In this document: one piece after another, positions 42,227-53,257 of the stretch
Layout: every line of letters begins with the position of its first letter
How positions within the stretch are numbered: position 1 is the stretch's first letter
Source of the DNA: Thiorhodovibrio litoralis
GTDB taxonomy: Bacteria; Pseudomonadota; Gammaproteobacteria; Chromatiales; Chromatiaceae
Reading direction: 5' to 3'
Length of the DNA: 64,000 nt
Assembly: GCF_033954455.1 (NCBI RefSeq)
Contig: NZ_CP121473.1
Location: forward strand, 4,016,501-4,080,500
Translations under genes and position numbers: made by a program
The notes under the pieces: generated by a model
What the model was told of the DNA's origin: nothing
Database searches by the model: none
What the model saw: the letters and a program-made list of their open reading frames with translations, nothing else

Positions 42227-42922
42227 TCAGGCCGCTTTCGCCAGCTCGTCGCGCATCTTGGCGATAATGCTGTTGTAGCGGTTGGGGTCGCTGTCCGAAC
42301 CCTTGCCGAAGATGCCCGAGCCAGACACGAAGGTATCGGCGCCCGCGGCCTTGATCTCGCCGATGTTGTCCGCTTTGACGCCGCCGTCGATCTCCAGGCG
42401 AATCTCCCGCCCACTCGCCTTGATCAGTTCGCGCGCCTGGCGCAGCTTGGTCAAAGCCGAGGGGATGAAGCTCTGCCCGCCAAAGCCTGGATTGACCGAC
42501 ATCAGCAAAATCATGTCGATACGTTCCATCACATACTCGAGCGCATCAAGCGGAGTAGCCGGATTGAACACCAGCCCAGCCTTGCAGCCCTCGGACTGAA
42601 TTAGCTGGAGCGTACGGTCGATATGCTCGCTGGCCTCGGGATGAAAGGTGATGTAAGTCGCGCCAGCAGCGGCGAAGTCGCCAACAATGCGGTCGACCGG
42701 CTTGACCATCAGATGCACATCGATGGGGGCGGTCACGCCATGCTTGCGCAGCGCCTCGCACACCAGCGGGCCGATGGTCAGGTTGGGAACATAATGGTTG
42801 TCCATCACGTCGAAATGCACAATGTCCGCGCCGGCGGCAAGCACATTGTCGACTTCCTCGCCAAGCTTGGCGAAGTTGGCAGAAAGGATGGACGGGGCGA
42901 TCAGGTTATCAAGAGCGGCCAT
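42227..42922 (-). CDS. rpe: Ribulose-phosphate 3-epimerase
   Basis: The ATG at 42922, preceded by GGAG, gives 231 residues. Motifs are [97 protein letters not shown] and [20 protein letters not shown]. The metal-binding His and catalytic Asp residues are all present. It serves the pentose phosphate and Calvin cycles. First gene of rpe-gph-trpE. Confidence 0.96.
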
Positions 42923-43299
42923 GGCGACATCTCCGCGGCTGACAGTCAGGTGGGCGAGACGCCGCCGAAGCGGGCGTCGCGAAAAATCCAAGCGTATTTC
43001 ACAATCCGCTACTTTACCCGATCAGTGCGGCTTTTCACCAGCACCCTGACGGAGGGATCAGGAAAAACCTGCCAGAATCACGTCAATTTGCGCTGCGGCT
43101 GACGGTGTCCAGCCCGCCAAGGCGCGCAATCTGATCGCGGCCGACTGGCGGCGCCTGGACTGAGCTGCACCGACGCACCGCACCGCAGCTGAACCGGCTT
43201 CGCGCCATTCGAAACACTTGGGGTAAACTCGCGCCCTGAAGAAGATCGGACCCGATCAGCCCAGCACAGACCAACCCATTACCCGCACGCGAATCGTCC
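42923..43299. promoter_or_regulatory. Divergent region between rpe and the DAB operon
   Basis: 377 bases that must contain the promoters of rpe-gph-trpE (leftward) and of the DAB operon (rightward). A short frame (43083-43301, minus) looks like chance. No LysR-type operator or clear -35/-10 pair could be defined. No regulator gene is adjacent. Confidence 0.4.
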
Positions 43300-44973
43300 A
43301 TGGCTCCCCTTGCTTATGCCCTGCCCCTAGTGATGCTGGCATCCATGCTGGCGGTTCGGCTCAGTGCCGCGCGCCTTGGCGAGTCGGTCGCGCGCATCAG
43401 TGTCGGCGCGAGCGCCCTGACACTCGCCCTCGCCCTGGTGCTGTTCGTCGATCAACTCGGCGCTGATTCGGCCCGGCTGGTCGGTGTCGGGCTTGGGCTG
43501 TTCACGCTCTACGTCGACTGGCTGAGCACCCTTATGGCGCTTTTGGTCGGCGGCGTCAGTCTGGTGGTGCATGTGTTCTCGGTGCGCTACATGCAGGATG
43601 ATCCGGCCTATGTCCGCTTCTTTATCCTGCTCGATGGCATCGTTGCGGTGATCCTGCTGATGGTGATGGCCGGCGACCTGCTCACCCTGCTGCTCGCCTG
43701 GCATCTGGTCGGCGTCTTTTTGTATTTTCTGCTCAACCACGACACGCGCCGACCGGCCTCGACGCGCTATGCGTTCTGGACGCTGTTCACGCACCGGATC
43801 GGCGACCTGCCGCTGCTGGCGGCGGTCGCGCTCATTCATCATGCCTTCGGCACCCTGAGCCTGCCAGCGGTGTTCGCGGCCATGGCGGCGACGCCCGGCA
43901 CCACCACCCTGCTTGGGCTGCCGCTGGCCGAGACCCTGGGCGTGCTAATCCTGATCGCGGCCTTTGCCAAATCAGCCCAGTTCCCGCTGCATACCTGGCT
44001 ACCCTATACCATGGACGGACCAACGCCGGTCTCGGCACTCATGCACGCCGGCATCGTCAACTCGGGCGGCTTCCTAATCAACCGCTTCGCGCCCGTTTTC
44101 GTGCACACCGACGGGGTGCTCCTGCTGGCGCTGGGGATTGGGCTCATCACCACCATCATGGGCTCGCTGATGATGCTGATGCAGAGCGACATCAAAAAGG
44201 CGCTCGGCTACTCGACCATGGGCCAGATGGGCTACATGGTGATGGAATGCGGTCTAGGCGCTTTTTCGCTGGCGATCTATCATCTGATCGCCCATGGTGT
44301 GTTCAAGGCGACCCTGTTCCTCGGCTCCGGCGCCATCATCGGCAAGGCGCGCAAGGACCCGAATATCCCTGAGGGGGAGATCTACAAGTTCATGGTCGAA
44401 CGCAAGGTGCCGCATCCGCCCGTGTCCTGGGTGATCTTCGCCGGCATTACCATCACGGTGCCGCTACTGATCGTCTTTGGCGCCCATCAATTGGTGGATG
44501 AGGGCTTTCTGCATCACCAGGGCGCGCTCATCCTGCTGTTGTTCGGCTGGATCACCGGCGCGCAGACGCTGTTCTTCGTCTACAAGATTGGCGGAGAGCA
44601 ACCCTTCAAGCTGCTGCTCTATGTGGTGTTGTCCTTCGGCCTGGTGATTCTCACCTATGTGCTGGTCGGCCACGCCTTCGATGCCCTGCTCTACCCGGAC
44701 CCGGCCTTCCGCGAGGCGCTTTACCGGGCCGCCTCGATCAACTTCGCCTCCTTCCTGCCGGTGCTGCTGGTGCTGATTGCCTTGATCGCCGGCGGCTGGC
44801 TGCTGGTGTTCCGCGCTACGGCTGAACCTCTTAACAGGCGTTGGCGCGAAGCCTATATCAGCCTCTATGCACTGATGTCGCGCGAGTTTTACATCGCCGA
44901 TCTCTATAGCCGCGCCGGCGAGACCTTGCTGGCCGCCTCCAAGCGCGTGAATGCGCGGCTGCGCTGGCTTTAG
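43300..44973 (+). CDS. dabB: DabB-like membrane subunit of a DAB inorganic-carbon transporter (NuoL/MrpA-type)
   Basis: 557 residues with about 14 TM helices. The proton-conducting antiporter-like motifs are LTLLLAWHLVGVFLYFLLNH, FAKSAQFPLHTWLPYTMDGP, TPVSALMHAGIVNSGGFLIN, QSDIKKALGYSTMGQMGYMV and LIAHGVFKATLFLGSGAI. The Lys and Glu residues of proton-transfer paths are visible. It resembles NuoL but no nuo genes are near. Downstream are a small membrane protein, a split DabA and a PII-like gene, so the DAB reading is favoured: DabB uses the proton gradient to drive CO2 hydration by DabA. Confidence 0.88.
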   Translation: MAPLAYALPLVMLASMLAVRLSAARLGESVARISVGASALTLALALVLFVDQLGADSARLVGVGLGLFTLYVDWLSTLMALLVGGVSLVVHVFSVRYMQDDPAYVRFFILLDGIVAVILLMVMAGDLLTLLLAWHLVGVFLYFLLNHDTRRPASTRYAFWTLFTHRIGDLPLLAAVALIHHAFGTLSLPAVFAAMAATPGTTTLLGLPLAETLGVLILIAAFAKSAQFPLHTWLPYTMDGPTPVSALMHAGIVNSGGFLINRFAPVFVHTDGVLLLALGIGLITTIMGSLMMLMQSDIKKALGYSTMGQMGYMVMECGLGAFSLAIYHLIAHGVFKATLFLGSGAIIGKARKDPNIPEGEIYKFMVERKVPHPPVSWVIFAGITITVPLLIVFGAHQLVDEGFLHHQGALILLLFGWITGAQTLFFVYKIGGEQPFKLLLYVVLSFGLVILTYVLVGHAFDALLYPDPAFREALYRAASINFASFLPVLLVLIALIAGGWLLVFRATAEPLNRRWREAYISLYALMSREFYIADLYSRAGETLLAASKRVNARLRWL

Positions 44974-44986
44974 GAGGCGGCGCCCG

Positions 44987-45784
44987 ATGATGCTCACGCT
45001 CATTCTATTCCTGCTCGCCGGCACGCTGCTGCCGCTGTTCCCGCTCAGCATGGGCACGAACTGGCTACTGCAAGCCGACCACCCGGGGCGGCTCGGCGAA
45101 ACCCGCACCCTGGCCGCGCTGCTGTTGCTGATGCCGCTGCTTGGTGTTGGCCTGATCGCGCTCGGCCTGGCGCTTGCTGAGGACCGAGCCGCCGCGCTAA
45201 CCACCCCGTTCGCGCTCTGGGGCGGAGCCAGCTCGCTGTTTTATGCCTTCCGCCTGCTCAGTGTGCGCGACGGGCGCATCTGGCTCGCCCAACTTTACAG
45301 CTCGGCCCTGGCCTTGATCTGGGTCGGCATCGCTCACCAGGTGCCGCCCTTGCTGCCCGCACTCGGACTCACGCTCTCACTGCTGCCGCTGCTGTTTCTG
45401 TTCGACAGCCTGGCGCGCCGCTTTGGCATTGCCCGCGCCGGTCTCTACCCCGGTCTTGCTTCGCGCATGCCGCGCTTCTCGGTGCTCTTTGTCGGCGCCG
45501 TGCTCTGTGCCGTTGCGGTGCCCTTCTCGCCCGGCTTTTTCGCTATCGTCGATCTCGCCTTCGGCGGTGTCGGCCGCAACGAGTTGCTCACCCTGTTGCC
45601 ACTGGGCCTGTCCTGGCTGCTGTGGACCTGGGCCGGCATCCAGCTGCTCGGCGGCATCGTTTTTGGCAGCCCGCGCGATGACCTGCGCTATCGCGATCTC
45701 GAGCCCGCGGCGGCGCGCGCCCAGAGTGCCGGCCTGCTCGCACTGGCCGTCTTCGGACTCTTTCTGGTGGAAACCGCCCTATGA
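44987..45784 (+). CDS. Membrane protein of the DAB operon, function unknown
   Basis: The ATG at 44987 follows AGGAGG by ten bases and gives 265 residues with roughly seven hydrophobic helices (LTLILFLLAGTLLPLFPLSM, LAALLLLMPLLGVGLIALGL, LLPLGLSWLLWTWAGIQLL). It has the look of a shortened Nuo/Mrp-like subunit but no diagnostic proton-path motif. It starts just after dabB and its stop overlaps the start of the dabA N-terminal frame by four bases (ATGA). A structural or gating subunit is inferred only from context. Confidence 0.75.
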   Translation: MMLTLILFLLAGTLLPLFPLSMGTNWLLQADHPGRLGETRTLAALLLLMPLLGVGLIALGLALAEDRAAALTTPFALWGGASSLFYAFRLLSVRDGRIWLAQLYSSALALIWVGIAHQVPPLLPALGLTLSLLPLLFLFDSLARRFGIARAGLYPGLASRMPRFSVLFVGAVLCAVAVPFSPGFFAIVDLAFGGVGRNELLTLLPLGLSWLLWTWAGIQLLGGIVFGSPRDDLRYRDLEPAAARAQSAGLLALAVFGLFLVETAL

Positions 45785-46326
45785 GCAGCCAGATCCAAAT
45801 CGCCGCCACGTCGACAAACACGGACGCCCCGAGCCTGGGTCAGCGCCTCAAGATCCGCTCCATGGTGACCATGGCCGGCGAGGTGCTGCCGTTCTTCTGG
45901 CCGATGCGCAATTTCATTCACCACAACCCGCTGCACGGGCTTGAACATCTACCGTTCGAGCAGGCCGTGGCCGAGGCCAGCCGCCTGTTCCATGCGCGCG
46001 GCTGGCTGCCGCGCACCGAGTATCAGCGCATGCTCGCCGCCGGCGATATCGACCTGGCGGTGCTCGAGGCCTTGGTCAGCGAGCAGGTCGATGCCTGGCT
46101 CGCCGCGCACGACGACCAGGTCCCCGTCCGGGATAGCGCCAAAGAGGACGCCGAAAAGGACGCCAAAGAGCGGACCGAAAAGAGCAACGCAGCGGTCGCC
46201 CAAGAAGGCGCGCTGCTGAAACGCCTGCTGATGGCCATGCTAACGGAACTGGATCAGCCGGCACCTGGGGATCGCGCGCCGAGCGCAACGGACGTGCTTG
46301 CCTGTCTGCGCGAACCGATCTCATGA
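45781..46326 (+). CDS. dabA: DabA (DUF2309), N-terminal part as a separate frame
   Basis: 181 residues. It contains VLPFFWPMRNFIHHNPLHGL and EHLPFEQAVAEASRLFHARG, the conserved opening of DUF2309/DabA proteins. A Lys/Glu-rich linker and a helical segment (LLKRLLMAMLTELDQPAP) follow. The frame stops at TGA 46324-46326, overlapping the ATG of the next frame (ATGA). Normally this segment is joined to the rest of DabA in one chain of about 800-1100 residues. Here it could be a true two-subunit DabA, or an assembly frameshift. Confidence 0.8.
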   Translation: MSSQIQIAATSTNTDAPSLGQRLKIRSMVTMAGEVLPFFWPMRNFIHHNPLHGLEHLPFEQAVAEASRLFHARGWLPRTEYQRMLAAGDIDLAVLEALVSEQVDAWLAAHDDQVPVRDSAKEDAEKDAKERTEKSNAAVAQEGALLKRLLMAMLTELDQPAPGDRAPSATDVLACLREPIS

Positions 46327-49142
46327 ATCCCGACATGATTCGCATCGACACTGCCAGCGCCGATCGTCCGGGCGCTGATCATCCCGACGTCGATTGCCCA
46401 AGCGCTGACGCTGCGAGCGCAGGCACCCCGGGCGCCGTGCCACTCAGCCCCGGTTCCCCAGCGCCCTTAGCCACCGAACTCGGCCACGAGCTGACGCTCT
46501 ACGATGCTGTCGATCAACTCTTCGGCACCCGCATCGGCGACACCCTGAACGAGCTGCTGATCAAAGGCCTGATGGACTTCTTCGACGAAGGCCAGTCGGT
46601 GTGGCCCATGCCCGGGCGCCGCCAGGGCCTGTTCCGTGCCTGGAGCCGCATCGCGCGGCGCAATCGGCGCTTGAACATGCGCGGCATGGACGTGAGCGCG
46701 ATCCTCGCCGATAGCAATCAGCCCGAGGTCCTGATCGACCGGGTCATGCGCCGCCTCGGCATTCCCGAAGACCACTGGATGGACCACTTTACCCTGGAGC
46801 TCAGCAAGCTCCACGGCTGGGCCGGCTTTGTGCGCTGGCGCGCCCAGGCCCGGCACTATTACTGGCAGGAACGCAACCCGGCCGATCTGGTCGATTTTCT
46901 TGCCATCCGGCTGGTGCTGGCCCTGGCGCTGCTTGAGGATGCCGGGCGCCGCCTCAAGCGCGAGCTGACCTGGCCGGCGCTCACGGCCTTCATGGACACC
47001 CATACGCGCGAGTGCCTGCTGCGGCGCGAGCTCAATGCGGGCACCGTGTTGCCGGAGTTCGCACACCGGGTAGAGGTCGCGCTTGAGCGCGGCGACCCGG
47101 CCCGGATCGATGCACTCTATGTCGAGTACGAGGATGCCAAAGGCTCCGGCGAGGCCCGCACCCGCGCGCGCCGCATTCTGGCCATGGCCGAGCGCGCGGG
47201 TCTATCGCACGAGCAATTGCTGGCCTATCCCGAAGACAGCCTGCTCAAACTCATCGACGGCATCTACAGCTTCAAGGCCAACGAGGGTATGTTGTGGACG
47301 CGAGCGCTGGAGCAAAGCTACACCGCACCTCTGCTCACCGCCATCGGCCCGCGTCTAGCCGACACCCGAGCACCCACACCAGAGCGCACCCAGGATGGCG
47401 CCGACGGCGTCCAGGCGCTGTTCTGCATCGATGTGCGCAGCGAGCGCCTGCGCCGCCAGCTCGAGGCGCTCGGCGACTACCAGACCTTCGGGGTCGCCGG
47501 ATTCTTTGGCATTCCGCTCAGCTTTATTGAATTCGGCAAGGGCCATGAGACCGCGCTCTGTCCCGCCGTGGTGCAGCCGCGCAATGTCGTGGTCGAGATG
47601 CCGCACACCCACACCGAGGCGGACCACTCGCTCTATGACCTGGCCCATGAGGTTGTCCATGACCTCAAGAACACCGTGCTCGCACCCTATGTCACGGTCG
47701 AGGCTGTCGGACTGCTGTTTGGCTTCGACATGGTCGGCAAGACCTTCGCGCCCCGCGCCTACAACACCTGGCGTCAGCGACTGGAAAGCGACAAGCCGCC
47801 CGCACGCCTGCTGATCGACAAAATCGGGGCGGACGAAGCGAGCGAGCTGGTCATCCATCTGCAAGACGAGATGATCATCCGCGCCATTGAGCGACATTTC
47901 GGCATCAAGCGCGAGGCACTCACCAGCCCAATGATCCGCGAGCTGCGCGAGATCGCACTCGGGCAAGGCCAGAGCCGGACCGCCTTTGCCCAGGGATTCG
48001 ACATCGAGCCGGCGACTGAGGCTGTCTTCATCCGCTCGCTGCAGGTGGAATACCGGGTCAACCCGGACCAGGCGCGCATCCAGCTCGAGCATCTGGCCAA
48101 GATCGGGTTTCGCCATCAGCGCCAGGCCCAGTTGGTGGGCACCGCGCTGCGCTCGATCGGCCTGACCTCGGGCTTCAGCCGCACCGTCCTGATCGTCGGC
48201 CACGGCAGCACCTCGGAGAACAACCCCTACGAATCGGCGCTGGATTGCGGCGCCTGCGGCGGCGATCAGGGGCTCATTAACGCGCGCATTTTCGCCGCCA
48301 TGGCCAATCGCCGCGAGGTGCGCGCCCTGCTCGCCGAGGATGGCATCCTGATCCCGGAGGACACCTGGTTCATCCCGCTGCTGCACGACACCACCACGGA
48401 TGAAATCGAGCCGGCCGATCTCGACCAACTGCCGCCCGCCGTGCTCACGCGCATGACCCGTATCCAGGAGGATCTGACAGCCGCCGGGCGCCTGTGCGCG
48501 CTCGAGCGCTGCCGGGAACTCGGCGAGCAGGCTGTCGACAGTCCCGCGACCGCCGCCCGGCGGGTGAAGCGTCACGCGCTCGACTGGACCCAGGTGCGCC
48601 CCGAATGGGGCCTGTCGAAAAATGCCAGCTTCATCATCGGCCGCCGCGCCCTGACCCAAGGGCTGGACCTGGACGGGCGCGCCTTCCTGCATTCCTACGA
48701 CCATCGGCTCGATGCCGACGGCCGCCTGCTCGAGAGCATCCTCTCAGGCCCGCTAATTGTCGCCCAGTGGATCAACCTGGAGCATTATTTCTCGGTGGTC
48801 GACAACGAGGGTTTTGGCAGCGGCAGCAAGGTGTTCCACAACATCACCGGGCGCTTCGGCGTGATGAGCGGCAACCTGAGCGATCTGCGCACCGGGCTCC
48901 CTGCGCAGACGGTGCAGAAGGGAAAGCACGCCTATCACCGCCCGATGCGCCTGGTCACGGTGATCGAGGCACCGCCGGCGCTGGTGCGCGGCCTGCTCGA
49001 TCGGCTCTACAAACCCCGCGAACTGGTCCACAACGGCTGGATCAAGCTCCTGGTTCTTGACCCCGAGAGCGGGCGCATCCACGGCTTCGAGCAGGGCGAC
49101 TGGACGCTGATCGAGCCAGGCGCTCTTAGTACACTGCCCTAA
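46323..49142 (+). CDS. dabA: DabA (DUF2309), catalytic part
   Basis: 939 residues. The first 45 are Ala/Asp/Pro-rich, then the family begins with LTLYDAVDQLFGTRIGDTLN and FDEGQSVWPMPGRRQG. The zinc site is intact: CIDVRSE supplies Cys368 and Asp370, and GHGSTSENNPYESALDCG supplies His627 and Cys642. The spacing (2 and 15 residues) equals that of characterised DabA. It is a carbonic-anhydrase-like protein that, with DabB, traps CO2 as bicarbonate in the cytoplasm. It is followed by a PII-like gene 14 bases on. Confidence 0.9.
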   Translation: MNPDMIRIDTASADRPGADHPDVDCPSADAASAGTPGAVPLSPGSPAPLATELGHELTLYDAVDQLFGTRIGDTLNELLIKGLMDFFDEGQSVWPMPGRRQGLFRAWSRIARRNRRLNMRGMDVSAILADSNQPEVLIDRVMRRLGIPEDHWMDHFTLELSKLHGWAGFVRWRAQARHYYWQERNPADLVDFLAIRLVLALALLEDAGRRLKRELTWPALTAFMDTHTRECLLRRELNAGTVLPEFAHRVEVALERGDPARIDALYVEYEDAKGSGEARTRARRILAMAERAGLSHEQLLAYPEDSLLKLIDGIYSFKANEGMLWTRALEQSYTAPLLTAIGPRLADTRAPTPERTQDGADGVQALFCIDVRSERLRRQLEALGDYQTFGVAGFFGIPLSFIEFGKGHETALCPAVVQPRNVVVEMPHTHTEADHSLYDLAHEVVHDLKNTVLAPYVTVEAVGLLFGFDMVGKTFAPRAYNTWRQRLESDKPPARLLIDKIGADEASELVIHLQDEMIIRAIERHFGIKREALTSPMIRELREIALGQGQSRTAFAQGFDIEPATEAVFIRSLQVEYRVNPDQARIQLEHLAKIGFRHQRQAQLVGTALRSIGLTSGFSRTVLIVGHGSTSENNPYESALDCGACGGDQGLINARIFAAMANRREVRALLAEDGILIPEDTWFIPLLHDTTTDEIEPADLDQLPPAVLTRMTRIQEDLTAAGRLCALERCRELGEQAVDSPATAARRVKRHALDWTQVRPEWGLSKNASFIIGRRALTQGLDLDGRAFLHSYDHRLDADGRLLESILSGPLIVAQWINLEHYFSVVDNEGFGSGSKVFHNITGRFGVMSGNLSDLRTGLPAQTVQKGKHAYHRPMRLVTVIEAPPALVRGLLDRLYKPRELVHNGWIKLLVLDPESGRIHGFEQGDWTLIEPGALSTLP

Positions 49143-49156
49143 GGAGGTATTCGATC

Positions 49157-49495
49157 ATGCAGCCGCTCAAGCAAAGCGCAATGAAAAAACTGGAGATCAT
49201 CGTCCAGGGGGAATACCAGGAGTTCGTCATCGACCTGCTCGAGCGCGCCGGGGTCAGCGGCTGGACAGTGGTTCACAACTTGTCAGGAAAGGGCTCGCAT
49301 GGCAGCCATGAGGGCCATCTGATGTTCAATGCCGACGACGTGCTGGTGATGATCATCACCGCCATCCCCGAGGAACTGGCCGACCCGATTCTGGAAGGAC
49401 TCACGCCCTTCTTTAACAAACACATGGGCGTGGTCTTCACCAGCGACATTTCGGTGACCCGACTCGACAAATTCCACCAGCCCGCGCCGGGCTAG
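49157..49495 (+). CDS. PII-like regulator of the DAB operon
   Basis: 112 residues from ATG 49157, with AAGGAGG nine bases upstream. The MKKLEIIVQGEYQEFVIDLL start, VSGWTVVHNLSGKGSHGSHE T-loop region and DDVLVMIITAIPEELADPIL fit the PII fold. The T-loop is short and lacks the uridylylated Tyr of GlnB, so it is closer to PII-like proteins linked to carbon uptake (SbtB or carboxysome-associated types). It probably senses an adenine nucleotide or bicarbonate and gates the DAB complex. That role is an inference from operon position. Confidence 0.85.
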   Translation: MQPLKQSAMKKLEIIVQGEYQEFVIDLLERAGVSGWTVVHNLSGKGSHGSHEGHLMFNADDVLVMIITAIPEELADPILEGLTPFFNKHMGVVFTSDISVTRLDKFHQPAPG

Positions 49496-49578: not shown

Positions 49579-50502
49579 TCAGCGCGGGCGAATCCCCAAC
49601 AGATTGCGCACCCGCTTAAACGGGGGCATCACCACAGCCTCCCCTTCAGGACCATCGGCGAAGAAAAAGCCGGTTGAAGAACCACCGTCGAGATTGATCG
49701 CGCGCTCCACCGGCCAGTCGGTCAAACAGCCGGTGGTGGCCAGGCAATCGGCCAGATCGGCCAGGCTGATTGGGTTGCGCGTCGCCCCCAGCGCCCAGTG
49801 ACCGCGCCAGTCGGTCGCGGCAAAGGTGCGCCGCGCTGGCGGCGTGGTCGACAACCCACGCACCGCCCGGCCGTGCTCGACCAGATAAGGGCCGGTCTGC
49901 AAGAGCGCGTCAATGCCAGCATGGTCGCGAAAGGCCGCGTAGCGCACCAGATAGTTACCGCCGGGGTCGCTGTAAAGCACACCGCTCAGCAGCTTGGCGC
50001 GTTCAAGTCGGTGAATGCGCTGCCCGTCAGCGATCACCAGCCCCAGCGGTCGCCAGTCCGGATGAAAAAAGCCGCCATTGACGCCGGCCGGAATCCCGGC
50101 GGCGAGAAAGGCCTTATCCATGCGCGCTCCATCGGCGTTCAGGCTCGGCTCAAGATCAACCACCGCGAGCCGAAAGGCGCGGGAATGAAACAACGCCAGA
50201 TGGGCGGTGACGCGCTGATCGTCGGACTGGCGCTGGGCCGAGGCCTCGGCGTAAGCCAGCTCCGCATCCACCGGGGCCAGTGGTCGCGGCTCCAACGGCT
50301 GCCAGTCCGCCGCGAGCGCTGGCGCCAGGACCAGCGCCAGCCCGGGCATTAGGCGCGCAAGCCAGGGCCGTCCGCGCAACTGGCGCCCGGGTGAGTTGCG
50401 GCGAATTGCCAATCCGCTCAACAACGCGACAACGGCGAATAGATTCGCCCCTAAACATTGACCGCCGCGATCTTTGTTCGCGGCAATGACCTCAGCCGCC
50501 AT
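49579..50502 (-). CDS. Phosphodiester glycosidase family protein (NAGPA/DUF2233)
   Basis: Start at ATG 50502 gives 307 residues. A hydrophobic segment (LFAVVALLSGLAI) and a second near LMPGLALVLAPALA suggest a signal peptide or anchor; translation could also start at 50350. The domain has GVNGGFFHPDWRPLGLVIAD, LQTGPYLVEHGRAV, RRTFAATDWRGHWALGATRN and INLDGGSSTGFFFADG. The last motif is typical of the family that removes GlcNAc-phosphodiesters or related sugars. The start overlaps the end of the MmeI-like gene by 11 bases, which suggests co-transcription; a functional link is not obvious. Confidence 0.8.
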   Translation of the reverse strand: MAAEVIAANKDRGGQCLGANLFAVVALLSGLAIRRNSPGRQLRGRPWLARLMPGLALVLAPALAADWQPLEPRPLAPVDAELAYAEASAQRQSDDQRVTAHLALFHSRAFRLAVVDLEPSLNADGARMDKAFLAAGIPAGVNGGFFHPDWRPLGLVIADGQRIHRLERAKLLSGVLYSDPGGNYLVRYAAFRDHAGIDALLQTGPYLVEHGRAVRGLSTTPPARRTFAATDWRGHWALGATRNPISLADLADCLATTGCLTDWPVERAINLDGGSSTGFFFADGPEGEAVVMPPFKRVRNLLGIRPR

Positions 50503-53257
50503 GCAGCATCTCCTCATAGCGCGCCAGCAGATGTTCCACCCGCTCACGCTCGCTGCTGAAGCCACCGCTGAGATAAAGCCTGTCCACTGCGCGGTCGAGT
50601 GCCTGATGCGCCCGGCGCAACGCAGTCGGCATCAGGTTGGGATCATAGAGGTCGGCCAGGGTCGCATCTGGGTGCGCGGCACGCGCATCGAGCACTGCCT
50701 GCGCCAATGGCTCGAGCTTGGCGAGCCGGTCTTCTCGGGCCTGTGGCAGCGGGAAGGTGTTGTACACCATACCGATTGAATAACGATAACGACTTTCCAG
50801 CCGGCCGCCAATGCGCCGCAGCCAGCTCATGTGCATAGCTGAGGTTAGGAACGCGAAAAGCGTAAAGTTTGCATCTGAAAGTACAAAAACCAGGTCGCTC
50901 GGGATGACCGGCGGCTCTAGCCAACCAATGGGGACATAATCACGTCGCTCAGAGCTGACTTTTGGAATCACCAGAAAGGGCGAGGTTGGAATCACATTGA
51001 CATGATACTGTAGGGGCGTTTCAGCCAGTTTTTTCGTCGGCTTGCTTTTGCTGCTCTCGCGAAATGCACGCACCGCCGCAACCCGCTCGCGCACCCTTGG
51101 TAAGCGCTTAATCAAGGCGGGCTCGGCGCGATGCAGCGCCAGAATCCAGCGTTCGCCGCCGTTCAAAAACTCCTGACTACCGATGTAAGGCCGCAGAAAA
51201 GGCTCAGCCTCCGGCTCGGCGACGAGCAGTTCGGCTTTTTCGGCGGCATTCAGAATATAGTGCCCGCCGTCGATTGGCTTGGAGCCGATAATGAGTTTCG
51301 GCAGGCCGTTGATGGGCTGGCCTTGCTCACGCACCACCAGATGCGGGTCGACAAGCTGGCTGGCCTCGAACAAATAGGGCGACAGCGTCTTGAGCGCGGT
51401 TTCATGCGGCGCGCCACCGGGGTTGGAATAGTCGAACAGTCGCCTGGGCTCGGGCAGGTCAGCCGCCGGCGCGAGCCCGACAATCACCACGTGAACATGT
51501 GCTTTCCCACGCGCGTCGGAGCCCCAGGCAAAGGTCCGATGCGCGAATGCAATCTCCACTCCTTGCTCGAACAGCCGCGGCCAGAGCTGGGCGACTTGCT
51601 CGCCCTGAGTGATGGAATTGGTGGCAACAAAGCCGATGCGCGGCCGGTTGTGCGCGGGAACGCCACTCAAATAGGCCGCCGCAGTAATGAACCAGGCAGT
51701 GACATAATCCAGGGTGCCGCCGGATGCCCCCAGATTGGCAATGCCTCGGACCTGGGCACGTTGTTTCTCACTTTGGTATTTGGCACCAACAAAGGGCGGG
51801 TTACCCAGCAGATAATGGCAGCGCGCCGGCGGCAGCAACTCAGCCCAATCCATTTCCAGCGCATCGGCATTCAAGATATGGGGCGCGGTGCGCAGCGGGA
51901 TGCGAACATAGCTCTGGCCAAATTCCAGGCTCAGACGCGTGTTCATGATGTGATCCATCATCCAGAGCGCCGTCTCAGCGATGCGCGCCGGGAACTCGAT
52001 GATCTCGATACCGTAGAACTGATCCACGTTCAGCATCGACAGCTCCGCGGCATCCAGCTCCTGCTGACCGCTCGCCACGCTGTAAGCTCGCAGCTCGCGA
52101 ATGACCTCGATCTCCAGCAGGCGCAGCTCCCGATAAGCAATGATCAAAAAGTTGCCGCAACCGCAGGCCGGATCGAAAAAGGTCAGGGACGCGAGTTTGC
52201 GCTGGAAATCCTGCAGTCGTTTTCGCCGATGGGTGTCACGACGTGCCTTTAGCGCAGCCAGCTCCGCGCGCAAACCATCGAGAAACAATGGCTCAATGAC
52301 CTTGAGAATATTCTGCTCCGTGGTGTAGTGCGCGCCCTGGCGCCGTCGCTCATCGCGATCCATCACCGACTGGAACAGCGAGCCGAAAATGGCCGGTGAA
52401 ATTCTCGACCAGTCGAAGGCGCAGGCATCAAGCAGGCGCTGACGCATCCCGGCATCGAAAAACGGAATCAGCAGCGGCTCGCGAAACAGCGCGCCATTCA
52501 CGAAGGGAAAGCGTGCCAGATCCTCATCGAGATGGGGTGAGCGCTGCTCAGGCGGCGTGTTCAGTATCTGAAACAGACTATTTAGCGAAGCCCCGAGAGT
52601 GGTGCCATCCGCATCCGTGCGCTGCTCAATTAGGTCGAGAAAAATATCGCGCGGCTCAAAAATGCCGGTATCGTCAGCGAACAGACAAAACACCAGCCGC
52701 ACCAGAAAGAGCTCCAGGTCGTGGCCGGTGTAGCCTGACGCCTTCAAGCCATCATGCAGCCGCCCAACCAACTCCGATGCGGCGATATTGACCGGGTCCT
52801 GGTCCTTAAAAGACCGTTTTTGCACTCCAACAATGAAGCCGAGCTTCTCGACATGCTCGGGCAACTCAGCCAGGCTAAAGCGGGCCTGCTCGTCCTCCTC
52901 AAGATCGTAGAGCTCGAAGCTCTGAAAATCGCTCAGCAGCAGGTAGCGCGGCAGCTCCACATCCTTGAGCCCCGGAAAATAGGTAAAGGCCTGCTCCTTG
53001 GCGATGGCCAGATCGCGCCCCAGGCTCTTCTGCTCGACCAGCAGTACCCCTTTCCAGAACGAATCAATATAACCACGTCGATCGCCGAGCTTACGCACCG
53101 GCGCCTCGAAGCTCGCCACCCGGCGCACCGGCACCCCAAAGACATCGAACAGATCGCGATAAAAGAGCTGGGTCTGGCCCTTCTCGTAGCCCTGACCGGC
53201 CCAGTCACGCGCGAAGGTGGCAGCGCGGGTGCGAATTTCGTTCCAGGACAGATGCAC
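50492..53257 (-). CDS. Single-chain Type IIL restriction-modification enzyme (MmeI-like)
   Basis: 921 residues from a GTG. The N-terminal nuclease domain has RRGYIDSFWKGVLLVEQKS, a PD-(D/E)XK site (Asp, Glu, Lys). A helical spacer follows, then the gamma-type adenine methylase: LTFFDPACGCGNFLIIAYRE (motif I) and CHYLLGNPPFVGAKYQ (motif IV, NPPF). A target-recognition domain (PYIGSQEFLNGGERWILAL, WLEPPVIPSDLVFVLSDAN) and a C-terminal helical domain end the protein. Such enzymes cut and methylate with one recognition domain, so only one strand of the site is methylated. It looks intact. Confidence 0.88.
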   Translation of the reverse strand: MHLSWNEIRTRAATFARDWAGQGYEKGQTQLFYRDLFDVFGVPVRRVASFEAPVRKLGDRRGYIDSFWKGVLLVEQKSLGRDLAIAKEQAFTYFPGLKDVELPRYLLLSDFQSFELYDLEEDEQARFSLAELPEHVEKLGFIVGVQKRSFKDQDPVNIAASELVGRLHDGLKASGYTGHDLELFLVRLVFCLFADDTGIFEPRDIFLDLIEQRTDADGTTLGASLNSLFQILNTPPEQRSPHLDEDLARFPFVNGALFREPLLIPFFDAGMRQRLLDACAFDWSRISPAIFGSLFQSVMDRDERRRQGAHYTTEQNILKVIEPLFLDGLRAELAALKARRDTHRRKRLQDFQRKLASLTFFDPACGCGNFLIIAYRELRLLEIEVIRELRAYSVASGQQELDAAELSMLNVDQFYGIEIIEFPARIAETALWMMDHIMNTRLSLEFGQSYVRIPLRTAPHILNADALEMDWAELLPPARCHYLLGNPPFVGAKYQSEKQRAQVRGIANLGASGGTLDYVTAWFITAAAYLSGVPAHNRPRIGFVATNSITQGEQVAQLWPRLFEQGVEIAFAHRTFAWGSDARGKAHVHVVIVGLAPAADLPEPRRLFDYSNPGGAPHETALKTLSPYLFEASQLVDPHLVVREQGQPINGLPKLIIGSKPIDGGHYILNAAEKAELLVAEPEAEPFLRPYIGSQEFLNGGERWILALHRAEPALIKRLPRVRERVAAVRAFRESSKSKPTKKLAETPLQYHVNVIPTSPFLVIPKVSSERRDYVPIGWLEPPVIPSDLVFVLSDANFTLFAFLTSAMHMSWLRRIGGRLESRYRYSIGMVYNTFPLPQAREDRLAKLEPLAQAVLDARAAHPDATLADLYDPNLMPTALRRAHQALDRAVDRLYLSGGFSSERERVEHLLARYEEMLHGG

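Follow-up and report, generated by a model that had tools for sequence, protein, structure and literature searches.

In Halothiobacillus neapolitanus, a nuoL homologue, a gene for a putative transmembrane protein, a gene for a 1046-aa DUF2309 protein and a PII/SbtB homologue are described in this order within an expanded carboxysome locus (PMC4633670). A 2026 paper presents DAB1 as a three-subunit complex of Hneap_0907, Hneap_0908 and Hneap_0909 (PMC13144422). DAB1 with its interstitial PF00361 gene was reported to rescue carbonic-anhydrase-free E. coli, and a rebuilt CO2-concentrating strain no longer grew in air when DabA1 carried an active-site mutation (PMC7714395). A natural single-subunit DAC occurs in Acidimicrobium ferrooxidans (PMC13144422). 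As a fusion of DabB and DabA, it indicates that the number of chains in the complex can change.

Herein, we analyzed an operon in which the change goes the opposite way to that fusion, toward a split DabA. It lies in a 64,000-nucleotide stretch (the window) of a genome consisting of a single 5.47 Mb contig. The operon is likened to DAB1 of H. neapolitanus (Hneap_0907, DabA1; Hneap_0908; Hneap_0909, DabB1) by its gene order and by PF10070/PF00361 kinship. However, DabA1 of H. neapolitanus is one chain of 1046 aa within the expanded carboxysome locus, whereas the window has two chains and its genome carries shell genes about 0.7 Mb away. With DAB2 of the same species (DabA2/DabB2, PDB 9rd0), the window shares the zinc ligands, the Asp-Arg dyad, the finger glutamate and the counterpart of Leu658; DabA2, in contrast, is a single shorter chain in a two-subunit complex. 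We estimate a probability of about 0.87 that the operon serves CO2 uptake of the DAB1 type, with a DabA1 synthesized as two polypeptides that reassemble into a CO2-hydrating pump. The complex is a known one, here in a two-chain variant, and not a new kind of system.

The operon and its two dabA frames

Five closely spaced genes on one strand occupy positions 43300-49495 of the window, with the following features.

43300-44973, + strand: dabB (DabB1-like, PF00361/PF00662), predicted proton-channel membrane subunit by Pfam match
44987-45784, + strand: small membrane protein, positional counterpart of Hneap_0908; GGAGG precedes 44987
45781-46326, + strand: dabA-N, 181 aa, predicted first part of the DabA N-terminal domain (PF10070 positions 2-91)
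45919-45939, + strand: HHNPLHG motif within dabA-N, from the ORF translation
46323-46326, + strand: ATGA stop/start overlap of dabA-N and dabA-C, from the sequence
46323-49142, + strand: dabA-C, 939 aa, predicted remainder of the N-terminal domain, both beta-carbonic-anhydrase-like domains and the membrane finger (PF10070 positions 85-747)
47424-47438, + strand: zinc-site codons Cys368, Asp370 and Arg372, by alignment position
47700-47702, + strand: Glu460, counterpart of the DabA2 finger residue Glu444, by comparison with DabA2
48201-48248, + strand: zinc-site codons His627 (48201-48203) and Cys642 (48246-48248)
49157-49495, + strand: PII-like regulator gene, 112 aa (PF00543, E 1e-22)

The original prediction of a tight operon of dabB, a small membrane protein, dabA and a PII-like gene was borne out by the ORFs and the Pfam matches. 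The small membrane protein has an alternative in-frame upstream ATG at 44951, and its boundary with dabA-N is likewise an ATGA. Among solved chains, the dabB product matched DabB2 (9rd0_B) at E 6e-47, with NuoL/NdhF chains scoring above DabB2. The closest solved chain to the PII-like product was 5d4n_A (E 3e-40), which we take to be the carboxysome-associated CPII.

The order typical of DAB1 (dabB, small membrane protein, dabA, PII) is present in the window. Two other usual traits are missing: DabA1 is not one chain, and the operon does not lie beside carboxysome genes, a location also absent in some fused relatives. Because the chain number of DABs varies naturally, a single-chain DabA1 was not counted as defining DAB1. 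Judged from gene order and domain matches, the operon is of the DAB1 type, an assignment that goes beyond the original prediction, in which the type had been left unplaced.

An ATGA cut had also been predicted to divide DabA into a HHNPLHG-containing part of 181 residues and a second part of 939 residues, and the ORFs agree with it. Both parts exceed the PF10070 cut-off of 25 bits, dabA-N with 71 bits (E 7e-20) and dabA-C with 771 bits (E 1.7e-231). Considering that the former matches profile positions 2-91 and the latter 85-747, the two halves jointly cover the profile about once. The zinc site expected of a DabA (Cys, Asp-Arg, His, Cys) is present, with Cys368, Asp370, His627 and Cys642 all at the positions first proposed. 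The DabA-like spacing proposed for them held in part. The steps from Cys to Asp (2) and from His to Cys (15) equal those of DabA2, whose zinc residues are C351, D353, H524 and C539 (PMC13144422), but the Cys-to-His spacing is 259 versus 173. The spacing of 259 was also found in a fused relative (L011).

A profile of dabA-N with its relatives matched DabA2 residues 8-97 (E 5e-6), and dabA-C aligned to DabA2 from residue 133 onward (E 7e-95). On the solved DabA2 structure, these alignments place the cut within the N-terminal domain, which is helical. Only the profile found DabA2; a phmmer search of the PDB with dabA-N alone did not, and the model of dabA-N alone was poor (pLDDT 62), giving no meaningful structural match. 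In nine sampled class genomes, a compact unbroken DabA lacks profile positions ~50-105, the stretch around the cut, indicating that DabA is variable here. These compact proteins of ~700-800 aa are encoded in one frame in L179 (G528:C1) and in eight further class genomes; that of L179, read directly, is a single frame of 752 aa.

Distribution and junctions of the split

To see how widespread the split is, 210 genomes of the window's family were searched with the C chain as the query (E 1e-120), and a search at the level of the taxonomic order drew the same 210. This DabA type occurred in 32 of them: 18 split, from six genera, 13 fused and one undecided at a contig end (G044). All 18 split calls and 10 of the 13 fused calls were read directly from the loci, and the other three fused calls (G186, G187 and G191) were judged from one PF10070 match over positions 3-747. 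Open-frame length was a poor sign of fusion, as split loci reach 1204 aa from stop to stop; since it was misleading in this respect, the class sample was repeated with PF10070. In the class sample of 369 genomes, the C chain had matches at E 1e-120 in 35, not counting G000 and G110. A single PF10070 match spans the junction in 33 of the 35 (13 were also read directly); G399 runs on without a break past the junction until its contig ends, and G371 is undecided. Outside the family, none of these sampled genomes showed a split of this DabA type.

The original prediction had proposed looking for the same split in relatives, and the 17 other genomes closest by DabA all carry it. Split relatives with a full-length match have 63-85% DabA identity to the window, and continuous relatives 48-54%. 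The suggestion that DabA could be a true two-chain protein is supported: continuous relatives exist, but the closest 17 are all split. In these the break falls between the same blocks while the frame relations differ, which makes a stronger case than was first put forward.

A tree of the C parts was calculated from 46 of the 52 rows (L081, L082, L096, L144, L155 and L156 were omitted as incomplete). It separated the 16 split rows from the 30 fused rows by a branch with a support of 100/99, recovered in 200 of 200 bootstrap trees. The tree is unrooted; a single split is the simpler reading, because the distant Nitrospirota rows are also fused. Matches to dabB, the small protein and PII adjoin dabA in 15 of the 18 split rows and 27 of the 30 fused rows. 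Of the other split rows, L081 and L092 stop at contig ends and L083 has no PII match. The other fused rows (L014-L016, Nitrospira) have dabB downstream and neither small gene, and thus represent another operon type.

All 18 split loci are broken between the same two aligned conserved blocks, those around LACLR and LTLYD. The frame of dabA-C relative to dabA-N is 0 in 2 loci, +1 in 6 and +2 in 10, and the chosen C start lies between -8 and +210 bases from the N stop. The junction is an ATGA in nine loci, a slightly longer overlap in one (L083) and an offset of 28-210 bases in eight. The C-chain starts are putative, being chosen in-frame ATGs; in L083 a further ATG lies upstream of the one chosen. 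GGAG precedes the C start in six of the eight gapped loci and GGAGG in two of the nine ATGA loci, and no recognizable ribosome-binding site was found before the start of the window's dabA-C.

Since frame relations and offsets vary, no single frameshift or readthrough event suffices to explain these junctions, whereas two separately translated chains do. Programmed ribosomal frameshifting or stop readthrough, yielding one fused DabA, would suit the window itself, where the two frames openly overlap by about 190 bases. However, the shift required is not kept in the relatives, all three relations occurring among the 18 loci, and in L173 (Lamprobacter) several stops and a 210-base offset would have to be passed. 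We therefore regard this explanation as extremely unlikely.

One might suspect that a sequencing or assembly frameshift has broken an ordinary single-chain DabA, given that fused relatives exist and that isolated breaks do occur in other DabA types (L036/L091, and G250 within lysine codons). But the split is common to 18 of the 32 family genomes, in six genera and one clade, with differing frame relations, and in two loci the N and C parts share a frame and are parted by stops and a spacer. An error of this kind is barely credible. In this branch of purple sulfur bacteria, the split appears to be ancient and inherited.

Several breaks in other DabAs were observed as well. In L036/L091 (Ca. Thiodiazotropha), a frame break affects a different DabA type in one genome, and the sister loci are fused. 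The compact DabA of L177 (G250:C13:887500-892500) is interrupted within consecutive lysine codons where its N-terminal domain ends, owing either to an error or to a switchable run of A. G521, which like G250 is outside the family, has a broken DabA without the N part. The breaks in G250 and G521 look like single-genome events, and neither concerns the present DabA type.

Selection on the two chains

In 14 chosen pairs, dN/dS ranged from 0.11 to 0.53 for the N chain and from 0.06 to 0.33 for the C chain, indicating that both are under purifying selection. The value was higher for N than for C in 13 of the 14 pairs, and thus the N chain is under weaker constraint. The identities of the two chains correlated closely (r 0.93 over 136 pairs of 17 loci, with L096 omitted and L081 represented by a partial C part) compared with at most 0.30 in 200 permutations. 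Cys368, Asp370, Arg372 and the finger glutamate are kept in 16 of 17 split rows, L096 being gapped there, and His627, Cys642 and Leu764 in 17 of 17; L081 was omitted from both counts. All these residues are kept in the 30 fused rows, except that the finger glutamate is Asp in three.

These results bear on whether the gene is decaying, so that only the C chain, or neither chain, works and the genome's other DabA does the job. That second DabA, encoded elsewhere, is unsplit (925 aa from stop to stop) and matches DabA2 at E 8e-213, the split C chain doing so at the weaker E 7e-95. Decay would also fit the weaker constraint on the N chain, the damaged look of L096 and the finding that the other two of the three genomes in the window's genus lack the operon. 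The relaxed selection expected of a pseudogene was nevertheless not seen in the 14 chosen pairs, in which dN/dS stayed below 0.53 (N) and 0.34 (C); moreover, the zinc residues are kept in 16 of 17 split rows, and N and C diverge in step. Decay of the gene is thus very unlikely.

L096 (G161:C60:20500-29500) is a split operon without the Cys368-Glu460 region, in which the small-subunit gene is broken over several frames. It is either decayed or misassembled.

Small subunit, proposed assembly and genomic setting

The PF00361 kinship of the DAB1 interstitial gene has been published (PMC7714395). Herein, PF00361 was matched by 5 of 22 members of the small-protein family (best E 3e-5), and the window's own small membrane protein had no PF00361 match in Pfam. 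A profile of the 22 relatives matched residues 239-492 of 8e9g_M best among PDB chains (E 2e-9), and the first eight of its nine matches were NuoM/ND4-type chains. Compared with proteins of the same genome, this profile matched NuoM with P 3e-4 and a probability of 40; DabB (P 0.15) and two other controls (P 0.56 and 0.16) gave no match. A phmmer search of the PDB with the small protein alone returned no relevant solved chain. Its structure model was weak (pLDDT 55): the top five PDB matches were complex I or Mrp chains, none reaching E 0.001. From the profile matches, the small membrane protein resembles a NuoM C-terminal half. Of its invariant columns, just two hold charged residues, Arg101 and Asp249, and we therefore infer a structural rather than a proton-carrying role.

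Two conserved genes of one split clade, both under selection and with intact active-site residues, would yield the pump as follows; coupled translation, chain pairing, CO2 hydration and PII control are the steps that we infer. In the window, the ribosome would end the N chain and start the C chain at the ATGA, probably by coupled re-initiation. The N chain would provide the first part of the helical N-terminal domain, and the C chain would add the remainder of that domain, the membrane finger and both beta-carbonic-anhydrase-like domains, which hold the zinc site. The two chains would presumably associate noncovalently and dock on DabB and the small NuoM-like subunit. The proton motive force would power the complex in converting CO2 to bicarbonate, and PII perhaps tunes the pump.

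It is also conceivable, though unlikely, that the separate N chain is a detachable and possibly PII-controlled activating subunit, which completes the N-terminal domain when CO2 is to be hydrated and not otherwise. These purple sulfur bacteria would then have protein-level control over whether a DAB pump runs. For the preferred reading of two chains reassembled into one pump, a naturally two-chain DabA marks where the protein tolerates a cut, and the chains could be expressed, tagged and titrated separately, offering a handle on the role of the N-terminal domain. Such split dabA genes should not be annotated as broken genes. We found no mention of a split DabA in the open-access literature; the 2019 paper naming DABs lay outside this search, and an earlier mention is possible.

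Among the matches listed, carboxysome-type shell genes occurred in 15 of the 18 split genomes (not G123, G158 or G161) and in all 13 fused genomes. They lay within 15 kb of dabA in six of the 13 fused genomes (G023, G069, G185, G186, G192 and G193) and in none of the 18 split genomes, draft contigs included, again among the matches listed. Where both were on one contig, the distances from dabA were 0.7 (G000), 1.6 (G114) and 1.0 Mb (G116); in the window's genome, the shell genes are near 3.347 Mb and the operon near 4.06 Mb. On this count, the DAB1 operon seems to have left the carboxysome locus in the split clade. Reaction-centre genes matched in all 18 split genomes. Phototrophy alone was rejected as the cause of the split, because these genes also matched in 3 of the 13 fused genomes.

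Three genes on the opposite strand flank the operon. A ribulose-phosphate 3-epimerase gene (42227-42991, - strand) is divergent from dabB, and a phosphodiester glycosidase (NAGPA) family gene (49579-50565, - strand) lies just downstream of the operon. The next gene (50492-53257, - strand) encodes a single-chain MmeI-like restriction-modification enzyme, which is matched by five MmeI domain models.
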